Origin: Ashinkailepas kermadecensis
Taxonomy: Eukaryota > Arthropoda > Thecostraca > Neolepadidae
Length of the DNA: 64,000 nt
NCBI GenBank assembly: GCA_034440615.1
Contig: JAOTOM010005108.1
Coordinates: 310,001-374,000, forward strand
Direction of reading: 5' to 3'
A model generated the notes under the pieces. That model was not told where the DNA came from, did no database searches, and worked only from the letters and a program-made list of their open reading frames with translations. This document shows positions 913 to 64,000 of this stretch, piece by piece. Numbering within the stretch: position 1 is the first letter of the stretch; each line of letters starts with the position of its first letter. The translations under genes and the position numbers were made by a program.

Positions 913-1452
913 TTAGCCCTTCCTGGAATACCGAAAAGCAAGCCCTCTATTCTTATAATGATTGTCTATGCTGTTTTTAAAGATGTCCATTGTGCTGCTA
1001 CTGACAATGGTTTCTAGCAGCTGGTTCCAGTGTTCTACTACCCTGTTGGTGAAGAAAGACTGTCTTAACCTTGTCCTGCTGTGATTAACTTTAATTTTGA
1101 ATTGATGACCTCTAATTGCATCATTTCTGCTAAACTCAAACATTTCCCTGAGATATCCCTCTTCCTGATCATGAACAAATTTAAAGACCTCGATGAAATC
1201 TCCTCTCAGCCTTTTATATCTAAGTGAAAACATATTCAATTTCCTCAATCTTTCCTCATATGCCAGGTTGCTTATACCATTAACTATTTTTGTTGCCCTC
1301 TTTTGTACTCTCTCTAAAAGCCAACAATCTTTTTCATAAGGGGGCCAAGCTTGGACACAGCATTCCAAATGTGCCCTGACATAAGCACAGTAAAGATTCC
1401 TGATGACTTCCTCACTTTTGTATGATACATTCCTATATATTGCCCCAAACAT
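913..1452 (-). pseudogene. LINE ORF2 C-terminal region
   Basis: This 179-residue open segment has RAHLECCVQAWPPYEKD, LLERVQKRATKIV and LAYEERLRKLNMFSLRYKR, the standard wording after the RT of CR1-like elements. It continues through SFFTNRVVEHWNQL to a stop at 913. It is the longest uninterrupted piece of this LINE copy. Confidence 0.85.
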
Positions 1453-1668
1453 TCTTAGTGCCTTCCTCCTGGATTCTTTGGTCTGTTCTGATGCCCCAAT
1501 TTTGTGTTCAAAATAACACCTAAGTCCTTCTCCTGCTGAGTCACAGATAGTACTTGGCCTACCATCAAGTATGGAGCCTTCATATGCTGCCTACCTACAT
1601 GCATTATTTTGCACCTATGAAAATTAAATTTAATTTGCCATCTTTTCGGATCACTTCATAAGTTCGTC

Positions 1669-7545: not shown

Positions 7546-10125
7546 AATTTGTGATGGATGGGGTGAGATTTATGTTAAGAAAGCGTGCACGGCACAGACC
7601 CCTTTAAGCAGGCATGGATGCAGTTGGAAAATTATTACTAAGGCATTCAATCCACATGTGTTAAGAGAGATCAGGGGAATAGGGCTGGATAGCTAGGGTA
7701 GATAGGCATTGATAGGTGTGTGGGATATTAGAGGACTGGTTTCTTCAGGATGTGGGATGGTTGGGGTGGGTCTTTTTACCAGGCTTATGGTATCTTCCAT
7801 TTACAGACTTAACTGGATGGGCCCTTGGGTCTCTTATTAAGTCTAAACGTTTTATAACTTTATATAGGGTGTACCTAGCAGTGGATTCAGCACCTTCCTT
7901 CGGGATGTGATACTGATGAGATTGTCTATGGTAGCACAATGGGTATGATGGGAGGAGTTTGTAATTGTTCAGTGTGTTATGCAATAGCAAGTGAATGGTG
8001 CTAGATAGGCTGGGATATATAGCTCCCTAGGAACTTGAGAAAAGGGATTGATAGGGGTGAGAGTATGTATATTTCTAGTACATTTTCTAGATAGGCTTAA
8101 CCCAGATGGGCCCCTGTGGCTCTTATTAAGCCTTAACACTTTATGACAACTGCCTTCTATATGTTTTTTTTAATTGTCTAATTTAATTTAATTGTCTTCT
8201 AGACAATTAGACAACTAGATGAATATCACTTATGCAAGACAGTTAAAATTATAAGGCTAAAGGTTAGAACATGAAATAGCACAGAAGTCGAACAGCACTT
8301 ATAAACACCACTAGTTTAGTCTTAAACTCTATCTTAAACTTAAACACCGAAAAGACTATGCACCACAAGATTAAATATATTATGTTAAGAAAGAATTAGT
8401 ATTCTCTAATGTAACTTATAATATCTACGCACAGGAAAGAAGGCAACAAGCTATCTACAAAATATAAAACAAAGACTTACCTTACGAACGAAACTACACC
8501 GTGAACGCCACAATTTCAAGGTTATCTAATGTATTCAATATTCACCATAAGACGAAGTGAACTATAAGAAAAAAATGTTATTCCCTAACTTAGCTTATAA
8601 TACCTACACACAGATTAAAAGCCACAAGCTATCTACAAAATAAACACAAAAACGTATCTTAATCACCAGTGGTCCATTCTTCTTTTTCCCCTCGGTGTCC
8701 TCAACCAGTCCTCCCCAGGCCTCGGAGCCGCGCGAACACGTCTGTCTGGAACAAGAGCAGAACCGTGGTGAAGTTCACATGCACGTACGTCATGAAATTG
8801 TGTACCAGTTTGGACCTCTTCGGAAGCCATAATGACGTCAGAGACAGTTTCGTTACGTCCTGCTCCGTTTGCAAGCAAGATGTGCGCCGGTTTCTATGGC
8901 ACTGCTTACTTACCAGCTGAATTATTTTATTACCTCATCTTAAATGGCCAGGAAAGGCAATGACATTGTTTTCCTGTAAACATAGATGCTATCGAATACT
9001 TTCTGAAAAGTATTCGGGGGCAAAATACATGAAGGCAATGGGCGGGCCCAAACTGATTGGGGAGCATACCACATAGGGCTCCATGTTAAAAGTTGAAATT
9101 ATTGGAAGGGAACATCCGACATTGGAGGATGGGGGTGGCAAGTGTCCTCCCAAAAGCATACAAAGCTGAACAACAACAATTATAATGCATGCCTCGTATC
9201 GCTGACTGCATTCTGTCATCGGATCATGAATTAACAGTTACATTGGGCTCACTTTGTATGTGGGACTATTGTGTGTCATATGGATCTGTAAGAATCTACC
9301 TAAATCTACATGCTGGATCTGTAGTTATCTACCTAGGTACCTATGCAAGAATAAAGGTGCAGGTGGACGGATGGGTTGTTGAATCATAGATCATAGATGG
9401 CATGTCCACGAACTCATTGCTAAAGGTGCGATTGCAATGATCTAGATTGCATACAAGTTTGATGGCTGAAAATTGATAGGGCAATGGAATTAATACAGTT
9501 CAAGCTACTTTTCCATATGTTTGACATTCAGAGTAACTGTGAAGATAATTATCACCATATAGCTGCTGATTAGTGGCATCATATATTCTTCCGACAATTA
9601 AGAAGCTCGGCATCACATAATCTCAACATTTTATCCTGGAAAGGTGTGTAGGTGGAATGCAGAAGGAAATATTTTTTATTCTTCCATGGGAAAAGTCGGA
9701 GAGCGAATCTGTTATCCAATCCGTTTCCGTTTATATTTGCCAAACTTTCCCATCCGCTCCGTTATCCCGTACCAAACGGATATCCTTACGAGCATCCAAT
9801 CCGTGTGATGCTCTGGTCAGCAGGCATAATGTCACCAGTTGTATTTTCTTGTCCACTATCACACACGGGCTCGATGCATATAGCAATCCGTGCTCCAATT
9901 CATGTTAAGTAAAAACAAACAGCATCAACTGGTGTGTTGAAGCATAGGAAGTAATGAACACCGTTTGCCCTGAAATGAGGTCTTGATCTGCCAGTTCTTC
10001 CAAAACAGGTGCCAGAATATGCTCGCCATCCCCGGGCTGACGCTGCCTCAAACCGTACTTTAGCATGCTCCACATTCGTTGCCGCTCCCAGCTGACCTGC
10101 GAGGCACTGACACGGTCCGGTCCAT
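7546..10125. other. Unassigned unique sequence
   Basis: No gene or known element is recognisable over about 2.6 kb. One place could hold a small minus-strand exon: at 8878-8780 a frame with MASEEVQTGTQFHD runs into a donor-like GTACGTGC. It is too short to call. Short dispersed similarities occur at 8390-8470 and 8570-8640. Confidence 0.4.
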
Positions 10126-11900
10126 GTAGCGGTGGCCGACGGTAGAGGTCGGTACCAGTGCCCCGCCGTCAGTGTTGAGAGGGTGTAGCGGTGGCCGGCG
10201 GTAGGGATCGGTACTAGTGCCCCGCCGTCAGTGTTGAGAGAGTGTAGCGGTGGCCGACGGTAGAGGTCGGTACTAGTGCCCCGCCGTCAGTGTTGAGAGA
10301 GTGTAGCTGTGGCCGGCGGTAGAGGTCGGTACTAGTGCCCCGCCGTCAGTGTTGAGAGAGTGTAGCGGTGGCCGACGGTAGAGGTCGGTACCAGTGCCCC
10401 GCCGTCAGTGTTGAGAGGGTGTAGCGGTGGCCGGCGGTAGGGATCGGTACTAGTGCCCCGCCGTCAGTGTTGAGAGAGTGTAGCTGTGGCCGACGGTAGA
10501 GGTCGGTACTAGTGCCCCGCCGTCAGTGTTGAGAGGGTGTAGCGGCGGCCGGCGGTAGGGATCGGTACTAGTGCCCCGCCGTCAGTATTGAGAGAGTGTA
10601 GCGGTGGCCGACGGTAGAGGTCGGTACTAGTGCCCCGCCGTCACTGTTGAGAGGGTGTAGCGGTGGCCGGCGGTAGGGATCGGTACTAGTGCCCCGCCGT
10701 CAGTATTGAGAGAGTGTAGCGGTGGCCGACGGTAGAGGTCGGTACTAGTGCCCCGCCGTCAGTGTTGAGAGGGTGTAGCGGCGGCCGGCGGTAGGGATCG
10801 GTACTAGTGCCCCGCCGTCAGTATTGAGAGAGTGTAGCGGTGGCCGGCGGTAGGGATCGGTACTAGTGCCCCGCCGTCAGTGTTGAGAGAGTGTAGCGGT
10901 GGCCGGCGGTAGGGATCGGTACTAGTGCCCCGCCGTCAGTATTGAGAGAGTGTAGCGGTGGCCGACGGTAGAGGTCGGTACTAGTGCCCCGCCGTCAGTG
11001 TTGAGAGAGTGTAGCGGTGGCCGGCGGTAGGGATCGGTACTAGTGCCCCGCCGTCAGTATTGAGAGAGTGTAGCGGTGGCCGACGGTAGAGGTCGGTACT
11101 AGTGCCCCGCCGTCAGTGTTGAGAGGGTGTAGCGGTGGCCGGCGGTAGGGATCGGTACTAGTGCCCCGCCGTCAGTGTTGAGAGGGTGTAGCGGTGGCCG
11201 GCGGTAGAGGTCGGTACTAGTGCTCCACCGTCAGTGTTGAGAGAGTGTAGCGGTGGCCGGCGGTAGAGATCGGTACCAGTGCCCCGCCGTCAGTGTTGAG
11301 AGAGTGTAGCTGTGGCCGACGGTAGAGGTCGGTACCAGTGCCCCGCCGTCAGTGTTGAGAGAGTGTAGCTGTGGCCGACGGTAGAGGTCGGTACCAGTGC
11401 CCCGCCGTCAGTGTTGAGAGGGTGTAGCGGTGGCCGACGGTAGAGGTCGGTACCAGTGCCCCGCCGTCAGTGTTGAGAGGATGTATCTGTGGCCGACGGT
11501 AGAGGTCGGTACCAGTGCCCCGCCGTCAGTGGGGGGGGCCGACGGTAGAGGTCGGTACCAGTGCCCCGCCGTCAGTGTTGAGAGGGTGTAGCGGTGGCCG
11601 ACGGTAGAGGTCGGTACCAGTGCCCCGCCGTCAGTGTTGAGAGAGTGTAGCTGTGGCCGACGGTAGAGGTCGGTACCAGTGCCCCGCCGTCAGTGTTGAG
11701 AGGGTGTAGCGGTGGCCGACGGTAGAGGTCGGTACCAGTGCCCCGCCGTCAGTGTTGAGAGGATGTAGCTGTGGCCGACGGTAGAGGTCGGTACCAGTGC
11801 CCCGCCGTCAGTGGGGGGTAGCGGTGGCCGACGGTAGAGGTCGGTACCAGTGCCCCGCCGTCAGTGGGGAGAGGGTGTAGTGTTGGCCGGCCGCAGGGGT
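10126..11900 (+). repeat. 59-bp minisatellite, about 30 copies
   Basis: The unit begins GTAGCGGTGGCCGACGGTAG, continues through GTACCAGTGCCCCGCCGTCAG, and repeats every 59 bases (for example 10126, 10185, 10244). Two sub-variants (GCCGACGG...GAGGTCGG and GCCGGCGG...GGATCGG) alternate in the left half, a higher-order pattern. Two shortened units near 11530 and 11815 contain a G run. Confidence 0.95.
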
Positions 11901-11929
11901 CGGTAACAGTGCCCCCACAGTCGGGCCGC

Positions 11930-12699: not shown

Positions 12700-12859
12700 G
12701 GGGACGAGTGTTCTAGGGGTAAGATGCTCGTCTCGCAATCGAAAGATTGTGGGTTCGAATCTCACCTGTCGCTACTCTTCGCCCGCGACCAATCGGCGTG
12801 AGAGATTGGCGACGCTATATAACTCAACGGTCGACGTGTCGTAAAACCAATAACCAACC
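12700..12859 (+). mobile_element. tRNA-derived SINE, family 1, full length
   Basis: The head resembles a tRNA gene, with A-box GTTCTAGGGGTAAGATGC and B-box GGTTCGAATC. The body has CCAATCGGCGTGAGAGATTG and GGCGACGCTATA, and the tail is CCAATAACCAACC. It is flanked by a perfect 13-bp target-site duplication, AACAATAAACCTA (12687-12699 and 12860-12872). SINEs of this type are copied by a partner LINE. This is the reference copy for the family in this window. Confidence 0.95.
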
Positions 12860-17284: not shown

Positions 17285-18115
17285 ATATCGCGTCTCTGGT
17301 ACACTACCAACGTCCTCAACTGATGTCCAGATTGTCTCTGGTAACTACCAACGTCCTCTGCTGACATACGGGGCCGCGGTAGCTCAGTTGGTAGAGCATC
17401 GGACTCTTGATCGCAAGATTGTGGGTTCGAATCTCACAACAGACGGTATTTACAGAGTCCACCCGCGACCAATTGGCGTGACCGGTTGGCGACGCTATAT
17501 AACCTAGCGGTTGAATGCGTCGTAAAAGAACTCAAGGTTCTTCTTCTGCTGACATACAGATCGTCTCTGGTACACTACCAACGTCCTCTGCTGCCGTCCA
17601 GATTGTCTCTGGTACACTACCAACGTCCTCTGCTGATGTCCAGATCGTCTCTGGTACACTACCAACGTCCTCTGCTGATGTCTAGATCGTCTCTGGTACA
17701 CTACCAACGTCCTCTGCTGACGTCCAGATTGTCTCTGGCACACTACCAACGTCCTCTGCTGATGTCCAGATCGTCTCTGGTACACTACCAACGTCCTCTG
17801 CTGATGTCCAGATCGTCTCTGGTACACTACCAACGTCATCTGCTGATGTCCAGATTGTCTCTGGTACACCACCAACGTCCTCTGCTGATGTCCAGATCGT
17901 CTCTGGTGCACTACCAACGTCATCTGCTGATGTCCAGATTGTCTCTGGTACACCACCAACGTCCTCTGCTGATGTCCAGATTGTCTCTGGTACACCACCA
18001 ACGTCCTCTGCTGATGTCCAGATTGTCTCTGGTACACTACCAACGTCCTCTGCTGATGTCCAGATTGTCTCTGGTACACCACCAACGTCCTCTGCTGACG
18101 TCCAGATCGGATTCA
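17285..18115. repeat. 42-bp minisatellite split by a SINE
   Basis: The unit is CAGATTGTCTCTGGTACACT plus ACCAACGTCCTCTGCTGATGTC, 42 bases. About two copies lie left of the SINE at 17370-17544 and about thirteen to the right. Because 42 is a multiple of three, both strands give long repetitive ORFs that are not genes. Confidence 0.95.
17370..17544 (+). mobile_element. tRNA-derived SINE, family 2 (different tRNA head)
   Basis: The head is a strongly tRNA-like GGTAGCTCAGTTGGTAGAGC (A-box) with ACTCTTGATC in anticodon position, suggesting tRNA-Lys(CTT) ancestry, and B-box GGTTCGAATCT. The body (ACCAATTGGCGTGACCGGTT, GGCGACGCTATATAAC) is clearly homologous to family 1, so the head has been exchanged. 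The copy is flanked by a perfect 13-bp TSD, TCTGCTGACATAC (17357-17369 and 17545-17557), made from the surrounding minisatellite. Confidence 0.93.
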
Positions 18116-24185: not shown

Positions 24186-24344
24186 GGGGACGAGTGGTCT
24201 AGGGGTAAGATGCTCGTCTCACAATCGAAAGATTGTGGGTTCGAGTCTCACCTGTCGCTACTCTTCGCCCGCGACCAATCGGCGTGAGAGATTGGCGACG
24301 CTATATGACTCAACGGTCGACGTGTCGTAAAACCAATAACCAAC
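24186..24344 (+). mobile_element. tRNA-derived SINE, family 1, full length
   Basis: Near-identical to the copy at 12700 (A-box GGTCTAGGGGTAAGATGC, B-box GGTTCGAGTC, tail CCAATAACCAACC), with a perfect 13-bp TSD CTGCCAATTGATA (24173-24185 and 24345-24357). The high identity suggests recent activity. Confidence 0.95.
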
Positions 24345-24784
24345 CTGCCAATTGATATTTACTATCTAAAAAAAACATTTCCGGAATTCCAAGCTGTTCG
24401 CCCCGCTTTTATTACCAGATATGATGAACTATTAGGCGTTGCAGTCACCAAAAATCACAAAACGGCCTGGCAACATCATATTTCACCCATTGCGCAAAAA
24501 TGCAACGTTAAACAGTTCCAATTTTTTTATCTCGAATTTTCCGAGAATAGTTTCACAATTCCTAAGGTGCCCACGGCCCCAGATTCCATGTTCACCTCCA
24601 AAATTCGGTTTCAGCGAACTTCGAAATCGACGCAGTTTGTAACGATTAGGTTATCAAAGCCAAATCGACGCCGTTTTATCTGCTTTCATTGTCCTAACAT
24701 GTGTACCATTGTGCAGTAGAGTCCCATGCAGAATGCTCACATGCACAGTGTCCCCAGAATGTGAATAACGAAGTCACATAAAGG

Positions 24785-25480
24785 TTGTGAAAATGATGTT
24801 TCCGGACAAAGCCTACGTGCACTGTGACAGCAAAGAGTGGCTTGTAATAGGTGTTGACTGTGCGTCCATATACATGATGCTCTGCAGGTGGAAAGAAAGC
24901 ATAATTGTACTTCTTGTTGTGATGTTCGAATATGGTCAGACTGCATCGTTGTCATGTTTGATGGCATTCAGTACGTGTTGTAAGTATCCACCAGATATTC
25001 CGAAGTAAAATTGCGCCGCTACACGGAAATATGCTACGACACTATGGTGATCATAAAATGTTCAACCCTTCTTAAGGAAGCTACAAGAGCTGCATTGGAG
25101 AGCTACAAATGTGTAAGCTGGAAAAGCAAGTTCTCATCATCTGATGTTTATTTCGTTGTTCTATCTCATCGTTGTTCGATTGTACACTGCTTAATGCAGT
25201 GTAGTAACGTGCAATAATGTGCAACATACAGGGAGTGCCCAATACTTGAGCAATGGAACCACAGGAAGCTTGTGAATATGTTCATGTTTTCCGGCACACG
25301 CTATGTATGCCGTGACGAAAACGCGCGTCTTTACATTACGATAGGGATTCGACTGTACGTCCATGCAAATGATGCCGACAGGTAGAATGCAGGCACAATT
25401 GTACTTCTTGTTGTGAGGCCAGCATGATCAGATGTTTCCATTACCAGTCCACCAGGTGTTCCGAAGTAAAATTACGTCGT
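24785..25480. repeat. Diverged tandem duplication (~500-bp unit)
   Basis: 24790-24980 and 25280-25450 are recognisable copies: GATGTTTCCGG against ATGTTTTCCGG, GTGCGTCCATATACATGATG against GTACGTCCATGCAAATGATG, and AATTGTACTTCTTGTTGTGA in both. No coding function is apparent. Confidence 0.65.
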
Positions 25481-29217: not shown

Positions 29218-32200
29218 GTGAGGGCCTGTCGGTGTGCGAGGGTCCGCTACTAGAATACACTGCGACTAGGGCGATGATCCGCCAGTGGACTGCACTGTAA
29301 TTAAGGCGGGGAGTGTCGGCAGAATGCACTGTGGCTGGGGCGAGGACTCGCCAGTAGACTACATAGTGGCAAAGGAGAAGGTGCGGGGACGAGTAGTCTA
29401 GGGGTAAGTTTCCAGTCTCACAATCGAAAGACTGTAAGATGTGCTTAAAAACCAATAACCAACCAAGGAGAATGTGCGAGTGCGAGTGCGACAGACAAAT
29501 CCACTTCGGTCAAGAGAAAATACAAGTTATCGGGATATTCATTGAACAAAAATGGATATTATATGCCACCCTGTCTCACGCCATTCGACACGGAAAACCC
29601 ATGTGAGATCAAATTTCCCCACTGCACATGGAAACTCTGTAAGCGATTCCATGATATTAGCAGCTTCACGATATGAGGGTTCAACCCCTAAACAATAATT
29701 TGTGGAGCAATGCTCATTCTATCATTTCGTGGATAGCATTCCGCAATCTCCTTTAGAGCGTACATAGCCATGTCTGTGGAATGGTTCAGCTTCAAGCAAA
29801 ACTAGTTATCGCTGGTAGTAAAAAGCCGTACTCCGATTCAATATAACCTTTTCGAATATCTTTGAGCTCGCGCTGGTGTAGCGATAGATATATAGTTACC
29901 TGTATCTGACACATTTCCTAGTTTATCTTTCAGTATTGGAATTAGTACCACCTTGGTCAATCCGGAAATAAATGCGCATGCTTGGTCATGATTTTGAGAA
30001 AGAAAAAAGCATTGCATTGCACACATTTGACGAGGGAATTTGCAGCGTTCCATGCCATGTCCACACTATTTCCCTGATGATAAATTACAAGAAGAACTTA
30101 AAATATCTCGAACACCAATGCTGTAAAGCGTTCCAGGGCCTACACCAAGTTTGTCCAGCACAGCTTTCCTTGGCATTATCATTCGAGACCGAGTTGAGTA
30201 TCCCCTCAGAAATGCTCCTTCACATGTTACTCATGCCTCTGGAACCACATATCCCGTCCCGATTAATGGTGTGAGGGGAGAACTGCTATCATTTTAAAAT
30301 AATCCATTTCTCACCAAATCGTTGCTAGGTCACGAGGAGTCTGATATAGTTTTTCAGCACGAGACTTAGCACGTAGTGTTTTTTCGTTGTTCAAACAAAA
30401 ACATAGAGCATATTTGAACTGTGATTTGGCCATACGCAACTGAGCATAAATGTAACCCTCCCTAGGTTTACCCACCAAGGACCACATACACCACCTGGAA
30501 TAGCCTGTGTCGATAATTTTCAAAGTGGTGTTATAAAAAACGGCTACTGTTTTTATTTTGCCTTGATATGTGCCTTACAACATGGCATAAAAATTAGATC
30601 GCTGGGCAATCGGCATTTTTTCTCAAAATGCGTTTGAAAAAAATTTTTCGGCATTCGGCGCCATATTGGCTGTGAGAACCAATCCAGATAAGTGGCTCAA
30701 ATAGTACCTCTTTTTGATCGTCTCGACGAGCTGAGTCGATTGAAACAACGCGGTATCGTCAAAAAATCGATAGTTAAGAAAATATTGCCTATCTTATGTC
30801 TTCTAATACACCAGCAAATGTCCATTTCGGGGCATACAAGGAACTCTGAGGTTTAAACAAGTAAAAATCATGATACAACCGCCGTTTCTGCACTTACTCA
30901 TTTGAAGACTTCAGCATCACTCACTGGGCATATATATACAGACAAGGCTTCATATTTATTCGCTGTTTGACCTACATAGCAGCATGATTGAGGGAGGCTG
31001 CTTTGTACGCATGTGCATCACATACCAAATACCTACCTATTCGTTGCATGTTGAGACATTCAGATAGCCTTTCCACATCACGTTCAGACGAAAATCAGAT
31101 ACGTTGGTGATAAAAATGATTAAAATTCGCCGTGGTTTTTGAAATTCGCCGTGATCACCATGGGACCATCGATGCCTATTTTTTTCCCAAAGGGAGACAC
31201 GTCAGACATCAATCAATTAACACTGGTATATCCAAGGCAAACATCGCGCGAAGGTGCGGAGCACAACTGCTGGGCGGCATAGAGCACCCCAGTTCTATCT
31301 TTCATGGAACTCACAGTCGTTTTAGCATATTATCCACGTCCCTCTTAGTTGTTAGCACGTGCAAAAGCTGCCGGTGCATGTAGCCAGCCGGGATGTAGCG
31401 TCCTCTCCTTCCCGTACACGGTTTTGCGAGCGACACCTGTTTCACGCATCGTTCAACTGACTGACCGTGCACGGGAAACTGTGGAACTGACATTGTCATG
31501 TCCACATAGCCATCAAGTTCGGAACTTGGCGTGTGGCACGTGAGGGCCGGTTCGAAGGCGCCGTCCTAGGATATCACCTCTTGCAGACTCTCCGCGGTCT
31601 CATTTAGTCTCGGAGTTCTCCTGGGACGAACGCTAGGGTATCCACGATCATTTTTGCCTCTGATGCACCTGATACGTTCAACAGCGAACTGGCGCTCTGC
31701 TCTGTCATCGCTACAGAGAAGTGTCTGGAGCACCATTTCGCTGTGAGCATACCAGGCACTGGAGTGGAGGTACGGCATCACCATGCTCACGACTTCCCCA
31801 TGCTGCAGCCGAATGAGCTGCAGCTGGCGCAGCATATGCCGCGGCCCATCCAGCCAGTTGTGCTGCACCTTCGCGCGAAACCACATCGGGTAGTAAACCC
31901 CCACAATGAATTCAACGATACGCCGGAGGTTTTTGCATGCAGTGTCTCCCAGGCCATGATCTGGCACGTACAGCCTCAGCATTGAGTTGGCCGTAGTGAG
32001 CCACCTGCTGTGATCCAGCCGTCCGATCTCCATCAGAGCCAGATCGACAGGGACACACCCCTGCCGTATCGCTCGGCACATCTGGTAGCCGTAACTTTGA
32101 TCATGGCTGAGGTCTTTTGCCACATCTGGTGGTAGAGACACCAACTCCTCCTCTGTGATCACTTTTTCGAAGTCTGTTATGGGGAGGTGTGAATGAAGTG

Positions 32201-35200
32201 AAACCCAAGTCGAGTCTGAATGTTTTCTAATGCGTGGTCGTGCTTCAGGCTTACCTTTTACTGTTTTAGCATTGCAATTGCAAAGTAGTATTTATATCTC
32301 CGAATGAGGAAGCTGTGAAAACAGCAAATGTGCCATACTTTCACTTTTTTCTAAAAGTAGATGTGGGACTACAAATTGGCCAGATGTCCGCTGATGGGAG
32401 ATATAAAACTGCCTTTATTTTCTAAGCTATCGATTTTTCGACCGCACTGCGCTGTTCCAACCGACTCAGCTCGTCGAGATGATAACAAAGAGGTACTATT
32501 TGACCCACTTATCTGTATTGGTTCTCCCAGCCAATATGGCGCCCAATGCCGAAAACAGTCTTTTTCAAACGCATTTTGAGAAAAAATGCCGATCGCCCAG
32601 CGATCTAATTTTTATGCCAAATTGTTAGGCACATATCAAGGCAATATAAAAACGGTAGCCGTTTTTGATAACACCACTTTGAAAATTATCGACACAGGCT
32701 AACCTGGAACCACATGTGACTCCTGCACAAACATATTCCTACCAGGAATCGTATGACTCCTGCCCCGAAATCTTTTCGCCGAGGCATGCTTAGAAATTGC
32801 AAATAAGCACAGTATAATATCATGATAATACTTATCAATGGAGATAAGATTTTCAGTAGCAGATGCACCAGTGCAATGACGGGCTCCTGCAAACATTTCA
32901 ATAAGTCCTAATTTGTGCTCCACCATGTCGGCATACTTCGGGATATTCCGAAGTATGCCGACATGGTGGAGCCGATGTCGATGGTTTGACCGAGGGTCAA
33001 TCCACAGTCGCCAATCTGGATGTCAATCAACAGCCAGACGCATCATCTAGCTTATCAAAGGATGTGACAACAGTTGCTGCATGTCGAATGGAAATGTTGA
33101 CAGAAATTGGGAGGTGATCTGAACTTATAATAGAATGTTTAATGATAACATCCTGGACTAGATTGTACATGTCAATAAATAAAATACTGCAGTAGACTGC
33201 ATAGTGGCTGAGGTGCTGTTCCACCAGTAGACCATACTGTAACTAAAGCTATGGCCCACCAGTATACTACACTGTGACTAAGGCGATAGTCTGCCATTAG
33301 AGTGCACTGTGACTAAGGCGATAGTCTGCAGTTAGACTACCCTGCGTCTATGGCGATTACTCACCAATAGACTACACTGCGTCTAAGGCGGGGTTCCGCC
33401 AGTGGACTACATTGCACTAAGGTGCTGGTCCACCAGTAGACTACACTGTGACTAAGGTGCTGGTCCACCAGTAGACTACACTGTGACTAAGGCGCTGGTC
33501 CACCAGTAGACTACACTGTGACTAAGGTGCTGGTCCACCAATAGACTGTGACTACGACTATGGTCCACCAGTAGACCACACTGTGTCTAAGGCGGGGTCC
33601 CGCCGGTAGACTCCACCGTGACTAAGGCGATGGTCCACCAGTAGACCACACTGTGACTAAGGTGCTGGTCCACCAATAGACTGTGACTACGACTATGGTC
33701 CACCAGTAGACTACACTGTGACTAAGGTGCTGGTCCACCAATAGACTGTGACTACGACTATGGTCCACCAGTAGACCACACTATGGGCCCGGACCACCGT
33801 GACTAAGGCGATGGTCCACCAGTAGACCACACTGTGACTAAGGCGATGGTCCACCAGTAGACTACACTGTGACTACGCTGTGAGTCGACCATTTGGCGGC
33901 ACTGTGTCGTATTTGGCTCAGTCAGTTTGTAAATCTGCTAAGGAGCAGACCTTCACTGGGCACAATTTGCATGTTGATAAATTCCTGCCAGAGTTTCGTC
34001 ACCAGCACCCAGATAGTTCGGCTATTGTGTTAGATTTGAAAAATCTTAATGGCGTTCCTGCCATAAATCATCATAATCTAAGGTTACATATGATTGTTAG
34101 TCTCCACGTAATATCCACAAGCTTGTCACACTGTTCTTTGACGATGCAATGCATGCTCCTGTGTTCCGACTCCAATCTCTGCACCAGCCAATACTTTGTC
34201 CGCCTATTACAGGTCACCCATGGAGTCTGATCTTCAATACAGCTGAGCACGGCTTCAGTCTGAAGTCCCTGTACCGGAAGGCGCTGGCGTTTGAGTGTCC
34301 CATGCTGTTGGTTGTCCATGATTCCAACGACAAGGTGAATTGTACGCAGAGTCGCAGCCAAGCTCCCCATTTAACAAACAAAAATACACCAGGTCAAACA
34401 AACAAACATGGGATTTTCCTCGCTCAAAAACGAAAATGATAGGCGCGGTTAGCAAAGCGAAAGCGGTGTTCATGGCATTTTTTTGGTCGGGCCGCCTTAA
34501 GACAAGCCTGGCTGTGCCTCTGATTGTATGCTTGTATGCAACGTCAAGAGGTGCACACACTATCATATATGCTGCCAATACATCAAGCAAGATAAACGCA
34601 CACAAATGCGGGTCATGAAATCAGTTCTGCATGCATCTCATATAGTTGTAACACACCTGAGCACACTTTCTAAAAGAGTATCTGCTACCAAATAAGTTCA
34701 CGTTTGCTATTGTAGAGTAAAGGGTTCTTAACATGCCTGGGTAGCCTGCAAAATGTCATTTTAAGCATCCACTCTTCTGGTCGGCACATTGAAAATTAGT
34801 TTAGACAGCGTGGGTGTAGCTGAGACGGCTACAATATACCAACAATATCCATACAATCACTCTGAACACCAAATAGTTCATGGATGAGCATCACCTCATG
34901 CTGGACCAGTCAGCAGCTTATTGCTCCAACATTAACGTGCACTAAAAAGCCCAAAAGGTGATGATAATCAAGCGAGTTTGACGTCTTAGTAGAATGCAGA
35001 GTCAGCCACTAAATAATGTATGCTGGATTCATTCTAGACGTGACAAGTGAGATTTAAGCGTCCCTGACCAAATTATGCTAACAAAATCAATGATGGAGCG
35101 AATATGTGCATTAATGCCAGAAACGAGGAGACTAGGGCAAAGCTTACTTCCAATGGTGGTTCGTGAGGTTTCGAGGGATCGCAAATGCATACCTGGCGCA

Positions 35201-38200: not shown

Positions 38201-41200
38201 TGCAGGATGGTGAGTCTCGGCTCCGGCTCTAGAGGTTTCAAGGAAAATGCATATAAGCAAGCAGTCGGGGACGAGTGGTCTAGGGGTATGATGCTCGTCT
38301 CACAATCGAAAGACTATTTGGGTTCGAAAGTCTCACCTGTTTTAACGGTCTTCGCCCGCGACCAATCGGCGTGAGACTTTGGCGATCGCTATATGACTCA
38401 ACGGTCGCACGATGTCGTATCAAACCAATGAACTGTCATTCTCCACAAGCAAGCAGTCGGTGTTGGGTAGCCAGAGTTCAACTGGAAGATGCTCTTGCAC
38501 AGTTTGTTGTAGTGTATTCCTAGGCGCATGCATCAATTTGATCTCGTCATTTGAGTGTGATAAATGATTGAGGCATGCAGGACACCATGCCCCTCTGAAT
38601 CTGTCACTGATAATTCCAGTGGCACATTTGTATTCATGTGATAAGTAACGCTTCCAATATGTTATATTATGTGAATACGTAGGAGTTGTTGACGACAGTT
38701 TCAAAATGTTGATGGTTTGGATTTCGGTGTTTGGCCCATTAGCGGATAAGTCTGCATTAGATGCCTTTTTTCTCTTTTTTATTAGCAACTGTTCTCCATC
38801 CAATCCTCACAAAACGAAGACCGTGGAGCAATGAATGCTTCGGCCCAGTGGTGAATCCAGAGGTCATGGGAGGCATGGCCTTTCTATGCTCTAAAGGCAT
38901 TGACTTGGCTCTTGAGCACTTTCAATGCATTTTGTATATCGTGTATTTCTCTTCACAAAGAAATTAGGCTCTTTCTGAAGAGAGTGAACTATTCCCGAGA
39001 AGTTTTCATGGTACGGCACGGGTAGTTTTTTTCGGTGCAGGCACGGCAGGGGCTCCTGACTGTAAGCCTGAAACTAGGAGCGGCCTTCAAAGTTGTTGTT
39101 GTCCACTTCCACATGCTTGGTGCCTCTCTTAATCACACCTCTTCCACACGCTTGGAACCTCTCTTGGTTGGTTATTGGTTTTACGACACGTCGACTGTTG
39201 AGTCATATAGCGTCGCCAATCTCTCACGCCGATTGGTCGCGGGCGAAGAGCAGCGACAGGTGAGACTCGAACCCACAATCTTTCGATTGTGAGACGAGCA
39301 TCTTACCCCAAGACCACTCGTCCCCCTTGGCACCTCTCTTAATCACACCTCTTCCACACGCTTACACACTCAGAGGTGCACAACACGTCAAGAATGTCAC
39401 CTACAAGCATTGAAACTCATAAATCTGTCACATTTCGAAACTTTCGGATTTTGCCCAACCTACTCCAATAGCACAGGTCCCCCAAAGCGGTTCTCCTGCC
39501 AAAACTTGTCCACCAAACCTGTCATTTTGCCGATTTTTTTAACCAAACTCAATGACTTGCTTCTTGCGTTCGGGATGAAAACATTCGAAAGAAGTATCTA
39601 CCAAATGTAAAGTTGTGAAATAATATCTCCACTATCACAAGGATCTCAGCTCTCCATTATATATGCAGCCAGGATACCCGCGCAGAGCCTTCCGGCGCCA
39701 AGGTGGCGGCATTTCGGCACCAATCAGCACCCAATACGCTGCATGACCGACGCAGTCGATGCGCCCCTAAACTCCAGCACCCAATACCTCGCCTCACTGC
39801 ACGCGATCACACGAGAACCAACAAGTAACCAAGATAACTAGAGACAACTAGAGCAAGTAACGACCGGGAAAGACTATGCCCGAAGCTGGCAGGGGTTAGC
39901 AGGTGCCCGTCGTACGTCCTTTCCCATACAAACGTTTGGGAACTGCGCCGCAATCGAGCCCTATCAACTGTCACGGCGTATCTGTGACAGCCTGCTGCGC
40001 CATGGTTCAGCCTAATGGAGCTGGCTGCGTGCAGCCGATATCGTGCACCGGGATCTGTCCCAAAAGAGTTAGCGCTGCCAAATGTCCTGCTCCGAAATTG
40101 CAGTGATAACTTACGGAAATATAAGCGAATAGTTTGTGAAATAAGCAAAAATAAACTGTGCATGCAATATTTGTGCGTTAAAATGTCTTTCCTGAAGTGA
40201 TATATCTTCTTTATGTGGTGAATACTTTTCCTTCTTCGAATAATGATTATCTGTCACAACAACGGCACAGTTTCAGCCAATATCTGCCACCTACGCTGGT
40301 AGGCGAGTTGGCAGGCGTGTGCACCTCTGTGCACACTACTCAAACACGCACACACACAAACTCGTGCACGTACGCTCATGATCATTCACACGTGTATTCA
40401 AGCGTATGTATAGCTGTGCAACGCTGCCGAGATGGACGCGCGCTGGCCGACGCCATTTGTACGGGTTGCTGCTCGCCGCTGTGCCTTAGATAGAAGAACG
40501 AAAACAGATTCGAAAGGTGTCCGTATTTACAATGTTGTTCCTTTTGGAACGGTTTTCAAGCACATGTATGCAGATATCTTTCCTTCTAAAGTTTGAACTT
40601 TCTTGTACGAAGAACTTTTCAAAGCAACATGCTACTAGCAGTCCCTCGTCCCCACTTGGGTTGGAGCCATATATTAGGATTTGTATTTGCCTTAGTCGGG
40701 CTAGGGAACTGAAATATAGGTGCAGTATTTCGGATGTCTGCTAAGGGAAAGGCTCGTAAGTCATTGCAAACGGGACATGGAATAATATAATGTTCGACGA
40801 TTTCAAACTGGTAACTGCAAATTAATTTGGGAGAATCGACTAATTGGAATTGGAAGAAGTGAGTTGAGCCCTGACACTCGGAGACTCGGAGTCTCGTGTG
40901 AATTTTGTTTGCTTGTTTTGCGCCAAAGCTGAAGCATTTAGGAACAGCTGCCGACCCGAGATGCTCGATGACTGTATGTTTGAAAGGTAAAGAGGTAAGC
41001 AACCCAAGAGGCGCAGGAAGGCTAAATGCCTATCAGCAGACAAGCATATAATTTTACAATCTCTCTACAGCATGAGTTTTTACAAACAAGGTGTGAGGTC
41101 TCGTCAATTATTCTCTCGAACCCTGTTCAAAAGCAGTTTTGTATTGGGTGTCGCTGCTCCCTGAGAAGGCAACTTCGTGTGAAACTATCAAATTGTGACA

Positions 41201-42207: not shown

Positions 42208-42866
42208 CGCCATCTATCACCACTCGCTGGGCCGTGTCTGGCACCATCTATCACCACTTGCTGGTCGTGTCTGGCGCCATCTATCACCACTTGCTGGTCG
42301 TGTCTGGCGCCATCTATCACCACTCGCTGGGCCGTGTCTGGCGCCATCTATCACCACTTGCTGGTCGTGTCTGGCGCCATCTATCACCACTTGCTGGTCG
42401 TGTCTGGCGCCATCTATCACCACTCGCTGGGCCGTGTCTGGCACCATCTATCACGGGGACGAGTGGTCTAGGGGTAAGATGCTCGTCTCACAATCGAAAG
42501 ATTGTGGGTTCGAGTCTCATCTGTCGCTACTCTTCGCCCGCTACCAATCGGCGTGAGAGATTGGCGACGCTACATGACTCAACGGTCGACGTGTCGTAAA
42601 AACCAATAACCAACCAACCACCATCTATCACCACTTGCTGGTCGTGTCTGGCGCCATCTATCACCACTTGCTGGTCGTGTCTGGCGCCATCTATCACCAC
42701 TTGCTGGTCGTGTCTGGCGCCATCTATCACCACTTGCTGGTCGTGTCTGGCGCCATCTATCACCACTTGCTGGTCGTGTCTGGCGCCATCTATCACCACT
42801 TGCTGGGCCGTGTCTGGCGCCATCTATCACCACTTGCTGGTCGTGTCTGGCGCCATCTATCACCAT
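42208..42866. repeat. 33-bp minisatellite 3' of the TLDc gene, split by a SINE
   Basis: The unit is CCATCTATCACCACTTGCTG plus GTCGTGTCTGGCG, 33 bases, about 15 copies in total. It is interrupted at 42455-42618. All ORFs here are repeat-derived. It may be part of the 3' untranslated region. Confidence 0.95.
42455..42618 (+). mobile_element. tRNA-derived SINE, family 1, full length
   Basis: Near-consensus copy (GGGGACGAGTGGTCTAGGGG head, CCAATAACCAACC tail) with a perfect 13-bp TSD CACCATCTATCAC (42442-42454 and 42619-42631) taken from the minisatellite unit. Confidence 0.96.
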
Positions 42867-45261: not shown

Positions 45262-47505
45262 GACGATGCTTATGTGTGACGGCCAGCCCCAGACGACAAT
45301 ACCTGTGTGTGACGGCCAGCCTCGGACGACAATACCTGTGTGTGACGGCCAGCCTCGGACGACAATACCTGTGTGTGATGGCCAGCCCCGGACGACAATA
45401 CCTGTGACGGCCAGCCCCGGACGACAATAACTGTGACGGCCAGCCCCGGACGACAATACCAGTGTGTGACGGCCAGCCCCGGACGACAATACTTGTGTGT
45501 GACGGCCAGCCCCGGACGACAATACCTGTGTGATGGCCAGCCCCGGACGACAATACCTGTGTGACGGCCAGCCCCGGACGACAATACCTGTGTGACGGCC
45601 AGCCTCGGATGTCAGTACCTGAGTGTGACGGCCAGCCTCGGACGACAATACCTGTATGACTGCCAGCCCCGGACGACAATACCTGTGTGACGGCCAGCCT
45701 CGGACGTCAGTACCTGAGTGTGACGGCCAGCCTCGGACGACAATACCTGTGTGACGGCCAGCCTCGGACGACAATACCTGTGTGACGGCCAGCCCCGGAC
45801 GACAATACCTGTGTGACGGCCAGCCTCGGACGTCAGTACCTGAGTGTGACGGCCAGCCTCGGACGACAATACCTGTGTGTGACGGCCAGCCCCGGACGAC
45901 AATACCTGTGTGACGGCCAGCCCCGGACGACAATACTTGTGTGATGGCCAGCCTCGGACGTCAGTACCTGAGTGTGACGGCCAGCCTCGGACGACAATAC
46001 CTGTGTGTGACGGCCAGCCCCGGACGACAATACCTGTGTGACGGCCAGCCTCGGACGACAATACCTGTGTGTGACGGCCAGCCTCGGACGTCAGTACCTG
46101 TATGTGACGGCCAGCCCCGGACGTCAGTACATGTGTGTGACGGCCGCCCCGGACGACAATACCTGTGTGTGACGGCCAGCCCCGGATAATATTACCTGTG
46201 TGTGACGGCCAGCCTCGGACGACAATACCTGTGTGTGACGGCCGTCCCAGGCCAACACACCGGTGTGTGACGGCCGCCCCGGTCCAGCACACCGGTGTGA
46301 CGGTCAGCCCCGGGCCGACATACCGGTGTGTGACGGCCGCCCCAGGCCAACAACACCGGTGTGTGACGGCCAGCCCCGGTCCAACATCACCGGTGTGACG
46401 GTCAGCCCCGGGCCGACATACCGGTGTGTGACGGCCGCCCCGGTCCAACACACCGGTGTGACGGTCAGCCCGGGCCGACATACCGGTGTGTGACGGCGCC
46501 TCAGGCCAACACACCGGTGTGTGACGGCCGCCCCGGTCCAGCACACCGGTGTGACGGTCAGCCCCGGGCCGACATACCGGTGTGTGACGGCCGCCCCAGG
46601 CCAACACACCGGTGTGTGACGGCCGCCCCGGGCCAACACACCGGTGTGACGGTCAGCCCCAGGCCAACACACCGGTGTGTGACGGCCGCCCCGGTCCAAC
46701 ACACCGGTGTGACGGTCAGCCCCGGGCCGACATACCGGTGTGTGACGGCCGCCCCAGGCCAACACACCGGTGTGTGACGGCCGCCCCGGTCCAGCACACC
46801 GGTGTGACGGTCAGCCCCGGGCCGACATACCGGTGTGTGACGGCCGCCCCAGGCCAACACACCGGTGTGTGACGGCCGCCCCGGTCCAACACACCGGTGT
46901 GACGGTCAGCCCCAGGCCAACACACCGGTGTGTGACGGCCGCCCCGGTCCAACACACCGGTGTGACGGCCGCCCCGGTCCAACACACCGGTGTGACGGTC
47001 AGCCCCAGGCCAACACACCGGTGTGTGACGGCCGCCCCGGTCCAACACACCGGTGTGACGGTCAGCCCCGGGCCGACATACCGGTGTGTGACGGCCGCCC
47101 CGGGCCAACACACCGGTGTGACGGTCAGCCCCGGGCCGACATACCGGTGTGGACGCCCGGTCCAACACACCGGTGTGACGGTCAGCCCCAGGCCAACACA
47201 CCGGTGTGTGACGGCGCCCCGGTCCAACACACCGGTGTGACGGTCAGCCCGGGCCGACATACCGGTGTGTGACGCCGCCCCAGGCCAACACACCGGTGTG
47301 TGACGGCCGCCCCGCCAACACACCGGTGTGACGGTCAGCCCCGGGCCGACATACCGGTGGTGTGACGGCCGCCCAGGCCAACACACCGGTGTGTGACGGC
47401 CGCCCCGGGCCAACACACCGGTGTGACGGTCGCCCGGTCCAACACACCGGTGGACGGTCGCCCGCACATACCGTGTATCCCGGCAATAGTGTGGCCAACA
47501 TACCG
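45262..47505. repeat. 2.2-kb minisatellite of ~31-bp units, two families
   Basis: At 45262-46235 the unit is TGTGTGACGGCCAGCCCCGG plus ACGACAATACC. At 46240-47505 it changes to TGTGTGACGGCCGCCCCGGT plus CCAACACACCGG, alternating with TGTGACGGTCAGCCCCGGGC plus CGACATACCGG, a two-unit higher-order repeat. ORFs up to 331 codons are artefacts. The last 300 bases are less regular. Confidence 0.96.
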
Positions 47506-56329: not shown

Positions 56330-57760
56330 GCCGCATGTGAACGATTCTCTTTGTGTTTCAGGTCATGTGGCCGCCAAACTACAGGAAATACAAACGAATA
56401 ACTACATGCAACGAATAGGCAAATGCTAAGATAGCAAGAATGATTTCGAGAAAATATGGCCACCACATCTTGCATTGGATTTCAGAAGGCTGCGACGTCC
56501 GTCCTACCCGCCCGTGTCTCATTAAGGCCGTATGCGAACTAATATCTTTATGTTTTAGGCCATGTGGCCGCCACACTATAAACAATACAAGCGAACAACT
56601 AAATGCAACGAATAGAGAAATACTCGAATAGCAGGAATATTGCTGCGCAAGTATCGATTACCTCTAAATGTGGCTTTTAGGAGGCTTTGCGAGATCGGCC
56701 CCGACCGCCCGTTACTTATTAACACGCGTCCTGGAGGCCCTCTGAAAAATACGCGCACTGGAGGGGGAGGGGGGATTCCGCCCCCCCCCCTAAGATCTCG
56801 GCTCCTATTAAAGCTGGAGTAACGAAATTCTCAGGGTGGGTGGGTACGGTAGTGAACTCTATTGTGTGCAAATGTCATCACCTTAAGTCAATATCTTCAA
56901 GGTCAAGTGAGGTCACATATGCCAAAATCTTCTTGTTTTGCGTGGTTTGGCTTGTCATTGTTATGGATCGCTGTGGTTGTGTTTAAATGCTCCAAAATGG
57001 GCATCAATGATGCTTTGGGCATTACTAATGATGTGATACAGATGCTAGACCCGGCATTTGACCTCAGGTCACCTATATAGCAGCACTTTATCAGGTCAGT
57101 TACCTGTTCCAGTTACCGGAACCGGGTCCCCCGCCCGACTGCTCCATCGGGCGGCTCGGCGCAATTGGCTTCGCGAAGAAAGGAGTGAAGTACATGAATA
57201 TAGTATGGAAACGCTTACGTACACAATGACAAACAGTAGTTTTCAGGATGTGTAGGGAGTGACATGGAAAGTGACATCAATCGCATGACAGTCATTTGTA
57301 TTTATGACAACATTCCAGTTGACCAAGTTTGGTTCCATTAACCTGTCATGAACTTGACCTGACTTGACCTCGGTGACCTAACATGACCTTGAAGCTATAT
57401 AGCATAACAATATGCATCAAACAAGTCGCTGGTGTTGCCAAGAACACTTCCCTTTTGCCAATATTCGGGAAGCGTATCAGCGCCGATTTTTGTGGTCTGG
57501 CGCTGCGAAATGTTTTGATTTTAACGGCTTCTAACTCGAAAAATGTTCGGCCGATTTCCCTTTTTCTTGCTGTAAGCGACGCGCCGGACATTTCTAAGCA
57601 GGTATGCAAAAAATGGCGTTTATCTACCGGTAAAACCTGGAGTTATGTACGAAAACCCGGAGGGGTGGGCGGATATCGCCCTCCCTCCAGTGCGCGTGTT
57701 AAGACCGTATAAGAACTAATATCTTTCTCTTTCAGGTTTTCGAACAGCACGCCAAAACTG
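56330..57760 (+). repeat. ~195-bp tandem repeat, three copies, one holding an insertion
   Basis: Copies share GAACTAATATCTTTATGTTT, AGGCCATGTGGCCGCCA, ACAATACAAGCGAACAACTA and GCAACGAATAG. The first is at about 56335, the second at about 56530. The third is split by the TTAA element, and its right part resumes at 57703 (GACCGTATAAGAACTAATAT). Each copy holds an acceptor-like TTTCAGG or TTTTAGG. Confidence 0.8.
56723..57698 (-). mobile_element. TTAA-type DNA element, complete (976 bp)
   Basis: It begins CACGCGTCCTGGAGG and ends CCTCCAGTGCGCGTG, with intact TTAA on both sides (56719-56722 and 57699-57702). The flanks rejoined give CTTATTAAGACCGTATAAG. The unoccupied paralogous repeat copy near 56520-56540 reads CTCATTAAGGCCGTATGCG, an internal empty site. 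It is homologous to 5549-6484 in opposite orientation. It has no transposase. Confidence 0.88.
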
Positions 57761-58815
57761 CTGGCAGTCATTTGTCTCTCAATTCAACAGGTTCACCCCT
57801 ACCGGCAGAATTTTGGACCTGATGAAGCGTTTCAATCTAAAACTCCCACCACCAGGCCCCTTCCTCCAGCTGACGGTGAAAGGACAACACATCACTGACC
57901 CACAACAAGTCGTAGACCACTTTAAACTGCACTACGTTAGTGTATCTGGCAACAGCGACTACGATACCACTATAGTAAGCGCACTAGACACCCTTGTCTC
58001 CAAAGCAAATTTTTGCTCTAGCAATAGAGAAACCTACAATCAGACGTTTACTATGCACGAATTACACCTTGCCCTCAGCAAGTGTGGAAACACGTCGGTT
58101 GGGCCGGACAACATCCATTACCAGTTTCTCAAACACCTTAGCAAAAATTCCCTAACGTACCTACTGGCGGCCATAAATAAACTGTACCAAAGCGACACCT
58201 TTCCCGCCTCCTGGAGGGAAAGCGTAGTCATTCCATTGCCAAAGCCGCACAAAGATCACTCCACCCCAAAAGGTTATAAAACCATCTCACTTACTAGCTG
58301 TGCTAGTAGGCTGGTCGAGCGCATGGTCAACACACGACTAAGGCAATTTCTGGAACACATCGACCTGCTCGACGAATTCTAATGCGGCTTCCAGCGTCAA
58401 AAATCAACTACAGACATGACATCAAAAGTGGTCTACGCATCAACCGCACAACAATAGCTGTCTACTTAGACATCACTGCCGCATTCGACCGAGTACACAA
58501 GTCCACACTGACACACAAACTCCACAAAATAGGCCTACGCGAACACATGGTACACTTCATTCTCAACTCCCTCAAAGACAGGACCCTCAAGGTACGATGC
58601 GGCAGTGTCACATCAAACACCTCAACTCAGGAGCAGGAATTGGCGCAGGGGAGCGTACTCTCACCGAGCCTCTTCATCATCATGATCAGCGACATACTTG
58701 CTGACCACACGGACACTTCACTTCAATAATCACTTTTCGCGGACGACATAGCCATTTGGACAACATCACGATGCTTCCTAAAAGTTGAGAAAAAAAACAT
58801 TCAAGCAGGTCTAGA
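57738..58815 (+). pseudogene. Jockey-like LINE linker and reverse transcriptase, broken
   Basis: It starts in the pre-RT linker (FVSQFNRFTPTGRILDLMKR, PFLQLTVKGQHITDPQQVVD), then RT: LHLALSKCGNTSVGPDNIHY, FPASWRESVVIPLPKPHKDH, GYKTISLTSCASRLVERMVN and DLLDEF. A stop at 58380 and a frameshift follow. It then continues with TIAVYLDITAAFDRVHKSTL, LAQGSVLSPSLFIIMISDIL, another stop at 58727, and LFADDIAIW (the YADD-box equivalent). It is cut at 58818 by a hAT-like element. The FADD box and the order of blocks are clear; the clade assignment is from wording only. Confidence 0.85.
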
Positions 58816-63439: not shown

Positions 63440-64000
63440 ACGGTAGTACATGGCAAGGGGCCCGTCTCCCAACCGAAAGGGTTTCGGTTTGAGACCTACC
63501 TGTTGCTACTCTTCGCCCCCGAGCTATCCGCGTGAGCGATTGGCCACGCTATACCCTTGGCCCGCGAGCTATCGAAGTGAGGGATTGGCCACGCTATACC
63601 CTTCGCCCGCGAGCTATCGAAGTGAGGGATTGGCCACGCTATACCCTTCGCCCGCGAGCTATCGAAGTGAGGGATTGGCCACGCTATACCCTTCGCCCGC
63701 GAGCTATCGAAGTGAGGGATTGGCCACGCTATACCCTTCGCCCGCGAGCTATCGAAGTGAGGGATTGGCCACCCTATACCCTTCGCCCGCGAGCTATCGA
63801 AGTGAGGGATTGGCCACGCTATACCCTTCGCCCGCGAGCTATCGAAGTGAGGGATTGGCCACGCTATACCCTTCGCCCGCACTATCGAAGAGGCTATACC
63901 CTTCGCCCGCGAGCTATCGAAGTGAGGGATTGGCCACGCTATACCCTTCGCCCGCGAGCTATCGAAGTGAGGGATTGGCCACGCTATACACTTCGCCCGC
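63440..64000 (+). repeat. 45-bp satellite grown from a SINE body
   Basis: 63450-63545 is a diverged family-1 SINE head and body (GCCCGTCTCCCAACCGAAAG, CTGTTGCTACTCTTCGCCCC). From about 63500 the body segment CTTCGCCCGCGAGCTATCGA plus AGTGAGGGATTGGCCACGCT plus ATACC repeats every 45 bases (cccgc at 63561, 63606, 63651 and onward) to the end of the window, about eleven copies. One unit near 63880 is shortened. The array continues beyond the window. Confidence 0.93.

Follow-up and report, generated by a model that had tools for sequence, protein, structure and literature searches.

What moves a DNA insertion that is bounded by long terminal inverted repeats (TIRs) and encodes a protein matching no recognised transposase family? 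This question is raised by an element in a 64,000-nt stretch of Ashinkailepas kermadecensis contig JAOTOM010005108.1 (hereafter the window, to which all positions refer), in which one copy of the element was examined. The element is very probably a worn copy of a cut-and-paste DNA transposon, non-autonomous through internal deletion; the autonomous form would encode a transposase of ~800 amino acids (aa). Its odd protein is the tail portion of an enzyme of this kind that resembles, in predicted shape, the fly transposase Hermes, a member of hAT (hobo, Ac, Tam3, Hermes), although sequence searches do not recognise it as such.

Ends of the element and target-site duplication

A preliminary description of the locus reported TIRs of ~285 bp and a perfect 8-bp target-site duplication, both of which were borne out (Table 1). 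The two repeats begin with TAGCCTGTGTCG and share 90.6% identity across 286 alignment columns. Their outermost 34 nt are perfect, whereas exact inverted repeats reached 18 nt at most when the element was shuffled 100 times by mononucleotides. Mismatches per 50-column block numbered 2, 4, 2 (plus 2 gap columns), 4, 6 and 7 (36 columns in the last block), being commoner in the inner 86 columns. Immediately outside the repeats, ACCTGGAA flanks the element on either side, and the identical stretch is exactly 8 bp, giving the combination of TIRs and target-site duplication that characterises cut-and-paste DDE transposons. Within the window, blastn at E ≤ 0.01 returned just the two arms and no further copy of the repeat, and the 12-mer end, when up to 2 mismatches were allowed, had 7 matches including both ends, compared with 4.29 expected (a count of 7 was reached in 11 of 100 shuffles). 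The viral contig collection contained no exact match to the outer 20 nt of the repeat.

Table 1. Features of the element and its immediate borders (window coordinates).
Feature	Position	Strand	Remarks
Left target-site duplication, ACCTGGAA	30493..30500	.	Identical 8 bp at both ends
Left terminal inverted repeat, 284 nt, begins TAGCCTGTGTCG	30501..30784	+	90.6% identity to right arm
Region downstream of transposase remnant	30785..31313	-	No family-profile match; chance-level hits only (E 0.16, 0.96, plus strand)
84-aa C-terminal piece: H.QS.ER (predicted third catalytic acidic residue) and C-terminal helices	31314..31565	-	Profile 704-785 of 786
In-frame TAG stop	31566..31568	-	Splits remnant
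Homologous part of 241-aa open reading frame: predicted helical insertion domain with HSRWLTTAN..LRLYV	31569..32177	-	Profile 497-699 of 786
Gap between remnant and right repeat, 238 bp, including 38 unmatched codons	32178..32415	-	
Right terminal inverted repeat, 286 nt	32416..32701	-	Inverted copy of left arm
Right target-site duplication, ACCTGGAA	32702..32709	.	Identical 8 bp at both ends

A probable transposase remnant in the window copy

The coding stretch consists of two minus-strand pieces in the same frame, 32291-31569 (241 aa) and 31565-31314 (84 aa), separated by one in-frame TAG stop. Both motifs by which the open reading frame (ORF) had been described, HSRWLTTAN..LRLYV and HGQSVER.VK, are present, but the ORF is not complete: its two pieces correspond to the C-terminal portion of a longer protein. 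A profile of 114 relatives matched the two parts of this remnant but no other part of the element; the longer piece lacks a family match over its first 38 codons. When compared by tblastn with the 8 longer relatives listed, the homologous part of the longer piece showed 43-55% identity. About 63% of the protein is absent on the N-terminal side, and with it two of the three predicted catalytic residues; the window copy therefore holds no intact transposase gene. Since the missing ~490 residues could not be encoded in the 238 bp that separate the remnant from the right repeat, this copy is internally deleted, besides being interrupted. The single stop equals the number expected under mild decay, so that a neutral-decay test of the open frame is uninformative.

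A second candidate remnant (24740-24967, minus strand) gave a 40-residue match at E 8e-4 among 2538 ORFs, with no convincing repeats nearby; it may be a fossil or a chance match and was set aside as too weak.

A protein family found in animals

Read through the stop, the window protein had 43 relatives at E ≤ 1e-3, and a profile of 8 longer members had 372 matches at the same threshold, 120 of which were listed. A profile of six divergent members yielded 37 matches at E ≤ 1, the weakest at 1e-60; three of these (P0182, P0187 and P0188) were left out of the alignment, and P0182, which carries precomputed kinase domains, looks like a merged gene model. All 188 sequences, including the window protein, matched the family profile (77 of them end to end; median length 797 aa), although this count is not independent, the profile having been built from 114 of the same sequences. 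The named sources were all animals (Hydra vulgaris, Helobdella robusta, Caligus rogercresseyi, Chionoecetes opilio, Myxine glutinosa, Chaenocephalus aceratus and Aldrovandia affinis) and the named matches span cnidarians, annelids, arthropods and chordates. In a 51-row tree the window protein lies inside the family on a long branch, with a support of 90/52 at the nearest fork. No family member was confirmed in viral contig and genome contig collections by pattern or similarity searches, in a plasmid collection queried with the window protein, or in a phage collection queried with the member P0045. Literature searches, judged by titles and the starts of abstracts, returned nothing that we recognised as this family; a search for the motif SRWLTTA also found nothing, a result of little weight given how rarely strings of this kind appear in print.

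Pfam was scanned with 65 distinct sequences including the window protein, at E ≤ 10 (E ≤ 1 in one scan); two scans listed 25 of 34 and 25 of 31 families, without cut-offs. No listed match was better than E 0.0012 (DnaD_N, 3 of 39 members), and no transposase family was listed apart from one weak match to DDE_Tnp_1_7 (E 0.0062, 1 of 28 members), which was not used, scoring 16.3 bits against a cut-off of 22.4. Matches to NurA, DnaD_N and PaaA2 (E 0.13 for the ORF of the window) were likewise not used, being either scattered or, where a cut-off was given, short of it. Searches of PDB sequences returned nothing relevant, and NCBIfam searches with 10 members gave nothing close to cut-off.

Predicted fold and active site

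Structure prediction, which the preliminary description had named as a check on its suggestion that this uncharacterised family supplies the element's transposase, lends that suggestion support. For full-length relatives an RNase-H/DDE fold was predicted, with a near-invariant D, D and E and a CxxH motif, and Hermes was the top aligned structure for both models; a search of a viral structure library gave no match at E ≤ 1e-3. In the predicted models the fold of the C-terminal part follows that of Hermes as far as residue 609. The spacing between the second D and the E (D2-E) is 317 residues, and a conserved Cys/His cluster lies N-terminally (C129 to C157 of P0045). By prediction, then, the family has the RNase-H fold and D, D, E/D residues of such transposases, while the window copy is without both D residues. 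The predicted fold would place the family beside hAT and not at a great distance from all known groups.

Proposed mechanism

The full-length transposase may bind the terminal repeats through the domain containing the N-terminal Cys/His cluster, and would cut at both ends using the D-D-E active site on its RNase-H core. The histidine of the CxxH motif could help cutting beside the metal-binding acidic triad, as in Hermes; a role for the C/DxxH motif in Hermes-type transposases is described in the available part of PMC7780238. Joining of the ends to target DNA at two sites 8 bp from each other would then account for the 8-bp duplication. Having lost the part of the gene with both aspartates, the window copy should be mobile only with the enzyme of a full-length relative acting in trans; since it retains both ends, it could have been moved by enzyme made elsewhere. 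Under this interpretation, an animal family that sources label "uncharacterized" and that went unrecognised in these Pfam scans could be described as one of transposases, for which catalytic residues are predicted and a domain plan and an end sequence open to testing are at hand; genome annotations could cease to count its copies as host genes.

Flanking sequence and other features of the window

The element lies in sequence that we take, by resemblance, to be a long interspersed nuclear element (LINE), whose reading had been described as resuming across the insertion. When the flanks are joined, a minus-strand frame is indeed open across the junction, but the LINE-like reading then goes on in a different frame, and Pfam gave the LINE no support: the two pieces adjoining the junction had no match, and a third flanking piece matched DUF7381 below threshold (19.3 bits, cut-off 27). 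Because none of the flanking pieces had an above-threshold match, the LINE identity rests on resemblance. Just beyond the element, the LINE-like flank contains a perfect 22-nt inverted repeat with a 6-nt spacer (32920-32969).

Elsewhere in the window, five matches to the transfer RNA (tRNA) family (31-36 bits, 58-61 nt; 12707-12767, 17380-17437, 24193-24253 and 42462-42522 on the plus strand and 39258-39318 on the minus strand) look like copies of a tRNA-derived short interspersed nuclear element. Minisatellites are dense (10125-11915, 45273-47464, 63507-64000 and others), with at least 50 tandem-repeat rows at a score of at least 150, some of them overlapping. Finally, two ORFs resemble retrotransposon coding remnants, one at 57720-58382 (plus strand; sub-threshold Pfam match to reverse transcriptase, E 0.082) and one at 913-1590 (minus strand; sub-threshold match to DUF677, E 0.12).

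Comparison with known transposon systems

The 8-bp duplication is common to the element and hAT, as the superfamily is defined in the available text of PMC3942097, and the predicted RNase-H core with its large all-helical insertion, D-D-E residues and CxxH motif corresponds to the hAT core seen in Hermes. Together with the ranking of Hermes for both models, these features suggest that the element could be a divergent member of hAT proper, within the range of that superfamily, which would be a finer version of the Hermes-like explanation and not exclusive of it; we regard this as a substantial possibility, somewhat short of probable. However, the Pfam matches listed for the 65 sequences included no hAT model, neither the hATC dimerisation domain (PF05699; a difference at the sequence level only) nor a BED zinc finger, in place of which the family has its distinct Cys/His cluster; a profile search of PDB sequences found no Hermes sequence at E ≤ 10, and none of the 37 proteins matched by the divergent profile is named hAT. 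In addition, the repeats of this copy, at ~285 nt, contrast with the 10-25 or 5-27 bp given for hAT in the accessible portions of PMC3942097 and PMC3517528. Although the element would work in the manner of hAT, these defining features of sequence and end structure were not found, and we therefore do not file it as hAT. As to the termini, those of the one copy read TAGCC, and the hAT terminal consensus, YARNG, has a different fifth base.

The coding remnant might instead be a captured fragment, picked up from a gene of the family by an element of another superfamily (a Pack-type element), as could be imagined for a truncated gene inside a non-autonomous element of which just one copy was examined. 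This is unlikely, given that the predicted fold and the conserved active site would make the captured gene a DDE transposase in its own right, that the class nearest to the family is one in which 8-bp duplications are well known (PMC3942097, in the text available), and that internal deletion of the element's own gene is simpler.

A relationship to the P superfamily is more improbable still. That superfamily shares the 8-bp duplication, and the P element also has an RNase-H core with an insertion domain, located between strand 5 and helix 4 (both from the available part of PMC7776569). In Foldseek the P element transposase took third place with the first model (E 5.9e-4) and was the top match with the second (E 4.1e-3); its absence from the 50 structural-alignment matches listed for the second model excludes nothing. 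Unlike the P superfamily, the family had no N-terminal THAP domain among the Pfam matches listed.

Mutator-like elements (MULEs) have duplications of ~9 bp. A MULE relative, suggested by the long repeats, is the least credible candidate, since Hermes scored 3.6 Z higher, no MULE model was among the listed Pfam matches, and the D2-E spacing, at 317, greatly exceeds the 107 of the IS256/Mutator transposase ISCth4 (D241, E348; PMC7780238, in the text available). An 8-bp duplication is also common to the element and the Kyakuja-Dileera-Zisupton (KDZ) group, being reported for Zisupton in the available part of PMC12730594. No KDZ model was among the Pfam matches listed for the family. Pfam holds such a model, and we know of no solved KDZ structure for comparison.

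The most economical label is that of a Hermes-like DDE transposon family, possibly a sister group of hAT. More tentatively, we propose that the ~800-aa family may be the transposase of an undescribed superfamily of DNA transposons that is widespread in animals, a sister to hAT in which Hermes-type catalysis and an 8-bp target step would go together with a Cys/His domain of its own for binding the ends and with long repeats of the TAGCCTG type. A truly separate sister of hAT would help to tell the ancestral parts of the Hermes machine from those specific to hAT, namely the BED finger, the short ends and the hATC sequence.
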